Shown: piece after piece, positions 5,319-16,805 of the stretch | Numbering within the stretch: position 1 is the first letter of the stretch | Layout: each line of letters starts with the position of its first letter | Source: Gemmatimonadota bacterium | Lineage (GTDB): Bacteria; Gemmatimonadota; Gemmatimonadetes; Longimicrobiales; Gaopeijiaceae | Assembly: GCA_028873845.1 (NCBI GenBank) | Contig: JAPPNO010000092.1 | Coordinates: 1-38,083 of the forward strand | DNA: 38,083 nucleotides | Direction: 5' to 3' | Made by a program: the position numbers and the translations under genes | The notes under the pieces: generated by a model | What the model was told of the DNA's origin: nothing | Seen by the model: only the letters and a program-made list of their open reading frames with translations | Databases searched by the model: none

Positions 5319-7040
5319 CTACTTGCTTCCGGGCCGTGGGGTCTTGCCGCCCGGAGGCCATCCCTTGCCCCCTGGGCGTCGGGGCTTTCGTCCGCCCGTC
5401 GAGCGCGCCTTGCCCGTCGGTTGCCGGCTCTTGGCGCCTGGCGAGCGCGCCTTTGCACCAGAATGTCGGTCTTTTGTGACCGGTTGTCGCTCTTTTGCGA
5501 CAGGCCGCCGCTCCTTCGCCCGGTCGTAGTCCACGCGCAGACTGCGGCCGCCCAGCGTGATCCCGTTCATCGCGGAGATCACCTTTTTCGCGTCGCTTTC
5601 GCGGACCTCGATCAGTGAATGGCTCTCGCGCACGTCGATGCGCCCCACCCTCCTGCCCGGTACGCCCGACTGGTTGGTGAGGGCGCCGAGCAGGTCGCCG
5701 GGCCCGAGGTCGTCGCGCTTTCCCGCGGACACGAAGAGGCGCACCCAGCTCTCGGGTGCGGAGGCGTGGGCCGCTCCCACCGCGGGAGCCTCCCTCTTCG
5801 CGCCCCCGCGGTCGAGGAGGAGGAGGGCCGCGGCGGCGATTTCGGCCGCCGAGAAGCGGTCCAGCAACGACTCGACGAGGAGGTAGTAGGAAGCCATCCC
5901 GGGCGCACGCACCGCTTCGTGCAGGTCGTCGATGCGGGCGTCGAGGGTGGCCGAGACGCGGGGCGGACGGGTGGGGCGGGTCCGCCTGAGGCGAAGACCG
6001 GCGTCGGCGGCGACCTCCTTGAGGTGTCCCGTTTCGCGAACCGCGGCGAGGACCCATGCGGGGCCGCCGGAGGCGTGGCGCAGGGAAGCCGCCGCTCCTC
6101 CCGCCGGGACCGAGCAGGAAAGCGTTGCGACGGTCTCGGGCTCGTCCATGGCGTCGAGGGCCTCCCGGGCGGCCTCGTCCTCGCCCGGCGAAATCCACAC
6201 GGGCACGACTTCGTCGCCGGGGGGACCGGAGACGTAGCCGTGCATGGAGAGAAAGTCCCCCAGGTCCGCAGCCTGGTCGGCCGACGAGGCGAAGATCAGC
6301 ACATGGCGTACCGGGTCTTCCAGGAGGTTGGCGGTGAGCGCCAGGGCCGCTTCCCAGCGATCGCCCTCGATCACCACCAGGTTGAGTTCGCGGAGGTCGT
6401 CCGGCTTCGGCCTGCTCTTTCCGGTCTTCCGCGCGGGCTGGCGCGGCCCCGGCGGCACGGTGGCGGCCCGGTGCGTGAACCGTTCGGCCAGCGATCGCAG
6501 CGCGGGACCGAAGGGGAGGCCGCAGAAGATGCGCTGGCACTCGCGCGGCAGACCCGTCAGGAAGGCCTCGAGGTGGTCGGCGCGGACGGACTTGACCACG
6601 CCGTCGCCGTCGTGCAGCACGAGCGCCCGGACGTGCTTGATGTCGACGGAGCGGTCGAGGAGCGCTTGCACCCGGTCGGCCGGGACAAAGAGGAAGTCGG
6701 CGCGTTCGGGAAGCAGCCAGTGATCGGCCAGGGCGGCGGCACGTGCTCCGGACGCCTCGCTCAGGCGCGCGAAGGACCGTGCGAGTTCGGTGGCCTGGCG
6801 GTGTCCCGCGCAGAGGACCAGGCAGACGGGGGCGCCGCGGCCTCCTTCGAGCCGGTCCAGCAGCGGGGCTCCGTAGCCGACCAGGGTGCCGCTGCCCGGT
6901 CCCGCCCGGCCCATGAGGTCGTTGCCGCGGGCGATGACCGGGATCGCCGCCGCCTGGAAGGGGGTGGGCGTCTCGATGCCGTCGGCCGCGAGCGCGGCTA
7001 CGGTTTCCGGGCCGAGGGGAAGGTCTTCGAAGGAGGTCAT
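5319..7040 (-). CDS. Degenerate DEAD-box helicase (pseudo-helicase) with DbpA-type RNA-binding domain
   Basis: 573 aa with the overall plan of a DEAD-box RNA helicase. The Q-motif region is kept (ETPTPFQAAAIP, Q29), but the catalytic motifs are not. Motif I is RAGPGSGT (residues 45-52) with no GKT lysine; motif II is HDGD (143-146) instead of DEAD; SAT is replaced by CGL (about 173-175); no HRxGRxGR is present. Residues 431-508 form an intact DbpA/CsdA-type RNA-binding domain (VRLFVSAGKRDDL, SLIEVRESDAKKVISAMNG, LRVDYDRA). A basic heptad-repeat tail follows (509-573). It probably binds RNA, perhaps rRNA, without ATP-driven unwinding. It is the last gene of a minus-strand operon with 7105-7407 and 7419-8021. 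An intact DEAD-box enzyme lies at 15549-16805. Confidence 0.85.
   Translation of the reverse strand: MTSFEDLPLGPETVAALAADGIETPTPFQAAAIPVIARGNDLMGRAGPGSGTLVGYGAPLLDRLEGGRGAPVCLVLCAGHRQATELARSFARLSEASGARAAALADHWLLPERADFLFVPADRVQALLDRSVDIKHVRALVLHDGDGVVKSVRADHLEAFLTGLPRECQRIFCGLPFGPALRSLAERFTHRAATVPPGPRQPARKTGKSRPKPDDLRELNLVVIEGDRWEAALALTANLLEDPVRHVLIFASSADQAADLGDFLSMHGYVSGPPGDEVVPVWISPGEDEAAREALDAMDEPETVATLSCSVPAGGAAASLRHASGGPAWVLAAVRETGHLKEVAADAGLRLRRTRPTRPPRVSATLDARIDDLHEAVRAPGMASYYLLVESLLDRFSAAEIAAAALLLLDRGGAKREAPAVGAAHASAPESWVRLFVSAGKRDDLGPGDLLGALTNQSGVPGRRVGRIDVRESHSLIEVRESDAKKVISAMNGITLGGRSLRVDYDRAKERRPVAKERQPVTKDRHSGAKARSPGAKSRQPTGKARSTGGRKPRRPGGKGWPPGGKTPRPGSK
5322..5516 (-). repeat. 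21-bp-unit coding repeat (basic heptad tail)
   Basis: The 3' end of the pseudo-helicase gene encodes about nine tandem imperfect 7-residue units: KERRPVA, KERQPVT, KDRHSGA, KARSPGA, KSRQPTG, KARSTGG, then looser RKPRRPGG, KGWPPGG and KTPRPGSK. The first six are cleanly phased, each beginning with K and carrying R at position 3. The tail is strongly basic, proline/glycine-rich and probably disordered, as expected of an RNA-binding extension. Units differ at the base level, so this is an old expansion, not a recent slippage. Confidence 0.8.
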
Positions 7041-7104
7041 GAGCGCGGGGGCAGCGTGGAGTCCGCGGCGCGGCTGGGGATCCGTGCAGGCTCGGCCACG
7101 TGGG

Positions 7105-7407
7105 CTACGTGGGCTCGCCGGAGCCCGGGCCGCCGGCGTCGCCGTACTCGTAGGGGAGGTGGTTGAGGAAGCGCTGGATCTCGTAGTCCATGCGCGAGGT
7201 GCGGAGCCGGTCGGTGCGCGCCGTCACGTCGGTGAAGGGGCCGTGACGGTGGACGGAGAGGACGACGGTGCCCTCGTCGCCGGTGTAGGTGGCCCCGTGC
7301 GACGACTGCTTCGACCTGCTGAGCCCGATGTAGACCGGGAGGATTTCCTCGGCCCGCGCCAGGACCTCCGCCGGAGGAAGCGCCGTCTTGCGTTCGTATC
7401 CCGCCAT
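7105..7407 (-). CDS. Conserved hypothetical protein, 100 aa
   Basis: No known family is recognised. The protein begins MAGYERKTALPPAEVLARAEEILP, has a strand-rich middle (GATYTGDEGTVVLSVHRHGP) and a hydrophilic end with RMDYEIQRFLNHLPYEYGD. No signal peptide or membrane segment is visible. The frame is open further upstream, but the ATG at 7407 is the best start: it lies 11 nt after the stop of the preceding gene on the same strand and has AGAGGG upstream. It sits between a DsbA-fold protein and the degenerate helicase, 64 nt before the latter, so the three are probably co-transcribed. Confidence 0.8.
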   Translation of the reverse strand: MAGYERKTALPPAEVLARAEEILPVYIGLSRSKQSSHGATYTGDEGTVVLSVHRHGPFTDVTARTDRLRTSRMDYEIQRFLNHLPYEYGDAGGPGSGEPT

Positions 7408-7418
7408 TGTCTTGCCCT

Positions 7419-8021
7419 CTACTCGTTGGTTCCTGCTGTGAGTTCGGTCCCGATCCACCGCTTCCATCGCGCGGCCTCGTCCGGCCCGGCCAGACCCTCC
7501 AGGCTGCGGCCGCCCGCGACCAGAGCCGGCACCATCCCGACCTCGCGGGCCGCGGCCGCTGCCCGGTGCCCGAGAACGACATCGGTGTAGCGGTCCACAT
7601 CCAGCACGGCCCGGGTCTCGGTTCGGTCCAGTCCGGCGCGGTGCGCGATTTCAACCAGCAAATCTATCCGCCCGATGTCGATCCGGTCGACGAAGTGGGC
7701 CTCGAACAATGCGCGCCGCACGCCGTGGTAACAATCCCTGTCGCGGGCGAACTCGGTCAGTTCGTGCGCCTTGCGTGTCCACGGAATCAGGTCGGGGGTC
7801 CGCATTGGGATGCCGAAGCCGTGGGCGAGGCCGGCGATCCGGGCGTGGTAGTTTCGCCACGTTGGGGCGGCGGGGTCGATCAGCGGGTTGGGAGGCGGGC
7901 GGAACTCGAGCCCCCGCCACCGGACGGCGTCGGCAGCTCCCGCGTCGTCGGCCAGGTGCGCGGCCAGGCGCGAGCCGGGATCGACGAAATCGAAGTAGAT
8001 GACGGGGGGTGGGGTGGTCAT
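7419..8021 (-). CDS. DsbA-fold (HCCA isomerase / FrnE-like) protein without CxxC
   Basis: 200 aa. The N-terminal IYFDFVDPGSRLAAHL aligns with the first strand and helix of DsbA/FrnE and 2-hydroxychromene-2-carboxylate isomerase proteins. The position of the redox CxxC is DPGS, so it cannot act as a dithiol oxidoreductase. The usual helical insert follows (about residues 60-150) and the fold closes with a cis-proline-like loop, VGMVPALVAGGRSLEGL, as in the family. A glutathione- or ligand-dependent isomerase-type role is possible; the reaction is unknown. There is no signal peptide, so it is probably cytoplasmic. I take the ATG at 8021 as the start (MTTPPPVIYFDF); the open frame upstream of it does not look coding. 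It is the first gene of the operon ending with the pseudo-helicase. Confidence 0.75.
   Translation of the reverse strand: MTTPPPVIYFDFVDPGSRLAAHLADDAGAADAVRWRGLEFRPPPNPLIDPAAPTWRNYHARIAGLAHGFGIPMRTPDLIPWTRKAHELTEFARDRDCYHGVRRALFEAHFVDRIDIGRIDLLVEIAHRAGLDRTETRAVLDVDRYTDVVLGHRAAAAAREVGMVPALVAGGRSLEGLAGPDEAARWKRWIGTELTAGTNE

Positions 8022-15548: not shown

Positions 15549-16805
<1,257 letters not shown>

Follow-up and report, generated by a model that had tools for sequence, protein, structure and literature searches.

The gene at positions 5319 to 7040 of the window, the whole stretch of 38,083 nucleotides of Gemmatimonadota DNA that was analysed, encodes a protein that shares its ancestry with the DbpA/YxiN-type DEAD-box helicases, has lost their catalytic motifs, is conserved among its relatives and is maintained by selection. 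The account that we regard as reasonably probable is that this protein is a pseudohelicase, an ancient DbpA/YxiN-type paralogue that has been kept by selection and that would most likely bind a structured RNA without ATP, the best candidate being hairpin 92 of the 23S rRNA.

The open reading frame specifies 573 amino acids without an internal stop on the minus strand, and the plus strand of the same interval is interrupted by an internal stop. Four regions can be distinguished in the product, all encoded on that strand. The RecA1-like domain (residues 1-205; 6426..7040) contains a Pfam DEAD match (residues 26-172, E = 6.4e-7) and is also matched by a low-confidence structure model. The RecA2-like domain (residues 215-415; 5796..6398) was delimited by profile-profile alignment and is shortened, with motif VI absent and the motif V stretch reduced. 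A DbpA/YxiN-type RNA-binding domain (RBD) then spans residues 431-506 (5523..5750), where the Pfam DbpA domain (PF03880) is matched at residues 434-503 with E = 3.6e-22 and 78.6 bits against a cut-off of 25.6, and where the structure of the YxiN RBD is matched as well. The tail after the RBD (residues 507-573; 5322..5522), recognised by its composition and its very low pLDDT, is basic; it is a low-complexity segment rich in Pro, Gly and Lys, with 22 Lys and Arg against 3 Asp and Glu in 67 residues.

The best solved relative of the protein is E. coli DbpA, and its score of 104.5 bits against the NCBIfam DbpA equivalog NF008744 lies below the curated cut-off of 524 bits. Profile-profile comparison (hhalign) of the window family with canonical DbpA-type helicases gave E = 3.5e-60 over residues 1-511 and E = 1.7e-41 for the core alone; the kinship therefore cannot be ascribed to chance. 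Comparison of a predicted structure with DbpA, which the initial annotation had proposed, ranked DbpA first, albeit from a weak model built from seven close sequences with a mean pLDDT of 49 (mostly 69-86 in the RBD and about 35-79 in the core). With this low-confidence model, Foldseek returned full-length DbpA structures first (E = 8e-12), and VIA-align likewise ranked DbpA first, matching RecA1 to DEAD domains with Z of about 11.5 and rmsd of about 3.5 A, and the RBD to that of YxiN (3moj) with Z of 10.9 and 2.1 A over 74 residues.

The initial annotation held that motifs I, II, III and VI of a DEAD-box protein are all replaced while the Q-motif glutamine and the DbpA-type domain stay intact, and direct reading of the residues bears this out. 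Motif I (residues 46-53; 6882..6905) reads A46-G-P-G-S-G-T-L53 where the canonical sequence is A-A-T-G-T-G-K-T, such that the lysine has become Thr52 and the threonine Leu53. DEAD in motif II is replaced by H143-D146, HDGD (6603..6614), and the sequence HDGDG was found in all 20 of the near relatives checked. In motif III, SAT has given way to CGL (C173-L175; 6516..6524), and the HRxGRxGR of motif VI, which supplies the arginine fingers, occurs neither in the window protein nor in any pseudohelicase compared. Conversely, the glutamine of the Q motif, Gln29 (6954..6956), is retained, and together with the PT.xQ stretch and the P-loop glycines it is nearly invariant among 26 aligned relatives. 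Held against an active DEAD-box RNA helicase, then, the protein lacks motifs I, II, III and VI and keeps only the Q motif, and would presumably not hydrolyse ATP. A helicase fold that has lost its catalytic motifs is that of a pseudohelicase, and judged by its sequence the protein is one; the low-confidence fold model agrees.

The loss is shared. A protein search of 249 Gemmatimonadota genomes found relatives of the window protein, full-length or fragmentary, throughout the window's own family (f1) and in two sister families of the same order (f2 and f3), with more distant ones elsewhere in the class. A separate domain search detected DbpA domains in 219 of the 249 genomes. Within f1, by our own tally from the search tables, 59 of 61 genomes encode a DbpA-domain protein and 9 of 61 carry two DbpA domains; in most f1 genomes the pseudohelicase is the only such protein, and the window genome has a single DbpA domain alongside many other DEAD/DEAH-type helicases. 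Matches on plasmids were distant, identity reaching no more than 28% across roughly half of the protein among the matches listed.

When the proteins extracted from about 125 loci were sorted by motif state, they fell into two classes with little between them. In the canonical helicases motifs I, II and VI are all intact, whereas the degenerate proteins are devoid of motif VI. Locus L138 is a canonical helicase whose motif VI is slightly varied, and L024 is an ordinary degenerate f1 copy with a chance GSGKT elsewhere in its sequence. Degenerate proteins were seen in f1 and in seven further families (f2, f3, f4, f5, f6, f7 and f9). Every f1 copy read lacks the motif I lysine, DEAD, SAT and HRxGRxGR, and its P-loop reads AGPG[SAG]G or nearly so; the motif I lysine and threonine are both absent from all f1 and f2 copies read. 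Among relatives motif II takes forms such as VDGA and VDQA, with DEAD preserved only at L118 in f7, where the P-loop lysine and motif VI have been lost, the reverse of the pattern in f3 and f9 described below.

A maximum-likelihood tree that included a proteobacterial DbpA, and in which the window's RhlE-type helicase served as the root, places all the degenerate proteins in one clade (support 100/100). Its sister group is formed by the canonical DbpA-type helicases of Gemmatimonadota (100/97), the two together being supported at 99/95, and its sub-clades track the host families, in agreement with an earlier, larger tree. The single clade, its sister position and the correspondence of its sub-clades with host families together suggest one old duplication followed by vertical descent, with the long branches as a caveat. 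By its homologous two-RecA core and its sister position, the window protein belongs by descent to the DbpA/YxiN superfamily. On the same tree motif VI changes once, motif I at least four times and motif II at least twice, and the simplest account would be that the loss of motif VI came first and that repeated erosion of the ATP-binding motifs followed, although regain is formally possible.

Erosion has gone furthest in f4 and f5, in which the Q motif and P-loop are beyond recognition and the DbpA domain is still present (loci L071, L072, L073, L111, L113, L123-L127, L129, L131, L134-L136, L145 and L146). In profile-profile comparison, the cores of these proteins match canonical cores with E = 6.6e-29 (f5) and 2.1e-10 (f4), and much stronger matches link them to other degenerate cores (4.9e-41 for f5 with f2/f3/f9; 2.6e-42 for f4 with f5). 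Several f5 genomes also encode an intact DbpA-type helicase.

As to selection, dN/dS was calculated between the window gene and three close relatives (83-85% identical) by the NG86 and YN00 methods, with four neighbouring genes for comparison. The whole-protein values of 0.18-0.21 (NG86) and 0.06-0.11 (YN00) equal those of the neighbours (0.12-0.23 and 0.03-0.13, respectively); single values are rough owing to GC-rich codon bias, and none approaches 1. By domain, NG86 gave 0.14-0.22 for RecA1 and RecA2, the same as for the neighbouring enzymes, and 0-0.09 for the RBD. The other close pairs calculated gave similar values, the RecA2 maxima of 0.32 and 0.41 arising from comparisons with L045. That purifying selection holds the pseudohelicase is therefore well supported. 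The initial annotation had argued for a retained non-catalytic role rather than decay, naming orthologues with intact GKT and DEAD motifs, or a core dN/dS near 1, as what would speak against it. No f1 copy read has these motifs, the phylum's intact DbpA-type helicases being a separate sister paralogue, and dN/dS is low in both core and RBD, such that the retained role is well supported.

The mean pairwise identities locate the constraint. Among f1 pseudohelicases they are 0.46 for RecA1, 0.43 for RecA2 and 0.60 for the RBD, whereas among canonical helicases they are 0.68, 0.66 and 0.59; the RBD is thus similarly constrained with or without a motor, and only the motor has been loosened. The RBD retains the GA[IL] and [VI]GxI stretches, which lie where YxiN and Hera contact their RNA; in those two proteins a guanine is bound by main-chain atoms of the loop of the [VI]GxI stretch (PMC3695512). 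By our residue mapping, the base-contacting Lys427 of YxiN is replaced by Asn in the window protein and by Gly in E. coli DbpA. On the RNA side, two complete genomes of the genus, each a single contig, have an intact hairpin 92 loop GGCTGTTCGCC; in the assembly to which the window belongs, one search gave one imperfect match to the loop and another gave none, and this draft probably lacks the 23S gene. The RBD surface and the loop sequence are accordingly compatible with binding of hairpin 92 by the pseudohelicase, without being proof of it.

In large-subunit assembly, the RRM of DbpA recruits that helicase to hairpin 92 (PMC7973409). For the pseudohelicase we envisage that the RBD and the basic tail would bind a structured RNA, with hairpin 92 of the 23S rRNA in the forming peptidyl-transferase centre as the candidate target, and that RNA or protein would be scaffolded or clamped by the dead RecA domains. 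The protein might thereby hold, mark or shield the hairpin 92 region during assembly of the large subunit, independently of ATP.

The target may, however, be a different one. Hera has a similar RBD and yet does not recognise the loop of hairpin 92, and specificity varies among RBDs of this kind (PMC3695512); the RBD alone therefore does not fix the RNA target. The pseudohelicase might then be a general RNA chaperone or an mRNA- or sRNA-binding protein whose RBD, like that of Hera, reads something else, a role that its long basic disordered tail would also suit. The RBD is nonetheless as constrained as that of the canonical helicases and has retained their contact loops, which suggests a fixed target, and we consider a general chaperone somewhat unlikely.

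Directly upstream of the pseudohelicase lies a gene for a conserved protein of 100 amino acids (7105..7407, minus strand); the open reading frame at 7037-7654 was rejected as the upstream gene, the conserved one being in another frame. At almost every f1 locus read, and at most of the f2 loci read, the small gene occupies this position; it was counted by us in 60 of 61 f1 genomes, and with a dN/dS of 0.035-0.06 it is more strongly constrained than the neighbouring enzymes. Its product matches no Pfam or NCBIfam model above the cut-off, has weaker homologues elsewhere in the class, and is predicted to adopt a beta-alpha-beta4-alpha fold (pLDDT 77) with weak, KA1- or SRPBCC-like matches in the PDB (best E = 1.5e-3). 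As the gene also persists in genomes G233 and G096, both without the pseudohelicase, a functional link between the two proteins is suggestive only. Further upstream is a DsbA-like thioredoxin-domain gene in conserved order (7422..8018, minus strand, start provisional; Pfam DSBA, 7.5e-17). An aminotransferase gene in divergent orientation also belongs to the locus, and many relatives have, on the far side, an HU gene that runs convergently. No known ribosome-assembly factor is found among the neighbouring genes.

The DEAD-box gene at 15549..16805 (plus strand), to which the initial annotation had drawn attention, is indeed present and intact, and is syntenic in f1; but it is of the RhlE/CshA type and has no DbpA domain, and was thus rejected as an intact parent copy of the window gene. 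Its nearby, syntenic position would fit a regulatory decoy or partner, in which the pseudohelicase binds the same RNA as an intact helicase, or pairs with the RhlE-type or a DbpA-type one, so as to limit or direct unwinding. An intact DbpA-type helicase does accompany the pseudohelicase in several genomes (G069, with loci L027 and L069; G140; G164; G226; G135). Yet with a second DbpA domain in so few f1 genomes there is mostly no intact DbpA to antagonise, and the RhlE-type helicase, besides having no DbpA domain, is encoded on the opposite strand at a distance of about 8.5 kb. We therefore judge a decoy or partner role unlikely.

The pattern of P-loop retention raises the question of a nucleotide-dependent switch that operates without hydrolysis, in which the P-loop and Q motif of some members would still bind ATP. 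In f3 and in two of the three f9 copies, GSGKT is intact and DEAD has been lost (L059, L063, L064, L065 and L075, which are without motif VI as well), and these relatives may still bind nucleotide; the near-invariance of Gln29 and the P-loop glycines points the same way. Against this, the window protein and all f1 and f2 copies read are missing both critical motif I residues, and in the remaining f9 copy (L117) the P-loop lysine has become arginine, which leaves a switch quite improbable.

The pseudohelicase is not needed everywhere. G096 represents a clean loss, in which the small gene and HU lie about 90 bases apart in a 171-kb contig with the remaining gene order kept; at this site (L150, about 5692-6356) the natural deletion can be compared with G034 of the same genus. 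A domain search of G233 found no DbpA domain. Together these two genomes indicate that the protein is dispensable in at least one lineage and not universally required. A decaying pseudogene, as might be proposed from the lost motifs and from the gene's absence in two f1 members, is extremely improbable and, along with sequencing error, was rejected, since the motif loss is common to independent assemblies, the frames in the loci read are open over some 500-600 residues, the gene is retained across nearly all of f1 and by vertical descent over the class, and purifying selection equals that on enzymes.

Pseudohelicases as such are already known. Utp25, of the eukaryotic SSU processome, has kept its function though dead as a helicase (PMC9539457), and resembles the window protein in its DEAD-box fold, its dead motifs, its maintenance by selection and its setting in RNA and ribosome assembly; it differs in being eukaryotic and associated with the small subunit, and in carrying extra N-terminal sequence rather than a C-terminal DbpA-type RBD. 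PriA of Deinococcus radiodurans, in which the motifs are degenerate across the phylum and nucleic-acid binding is kept (PMC4504706), offers a bacterial parallel of degenerate helicase motifs across a group with function retained, but is a DNA helicase of replication restart, from another family and with another substrate. Hera from Thermus thermophilus, likewise a DEAD-box protein, has a related RBD at its C-terminus and a basic tail that contacts RNA, but it is an active ATPase and helicase, has a dimerisation domain and, instead of the hairpin 92 loop, reads GGG-pyrimidine (PMC3695512). DbpA and YxiN themselves have in common with the window protein the three-domain order, homology over the full length, the RBD and the Q motif, while the window protein differs in its missing or shortened motifs, its far less conserved core, its long basic tail and its separate clade. 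The open-access literature searched yielded no account of a pseudohelicase derived from DbpA or belonging to Gemmatimonadota.

The proteins described here would thus add a bacterial lineage of RNA pseudohelicases with visible stages, in which the P-loop is kept, DEAD is kept (in one member) or RecA1 is barely recognisable. This natural series allows one to ask what job the body of a DEAD-box protein performs without ATP, and whether unwinding is needed for the role of DbpA at the peptidyl-transferase centre. It also carries a warning, in that Gemmatimonadota genes named 'DbpA' or 'DEAD-box helicase' from their domain content may encode non-enzymes. A broader proposal, which we advance tentatively and as possible rather than probable, is that a dead DbpA has become a class-wide, ATP-independent ribosome-assembly factor, bound at hairpin 92, that has outlived active DbpA in most of f1. 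If this is true, RNA binding, and not unwinding, would be the useful part of DbpA in most of the family.
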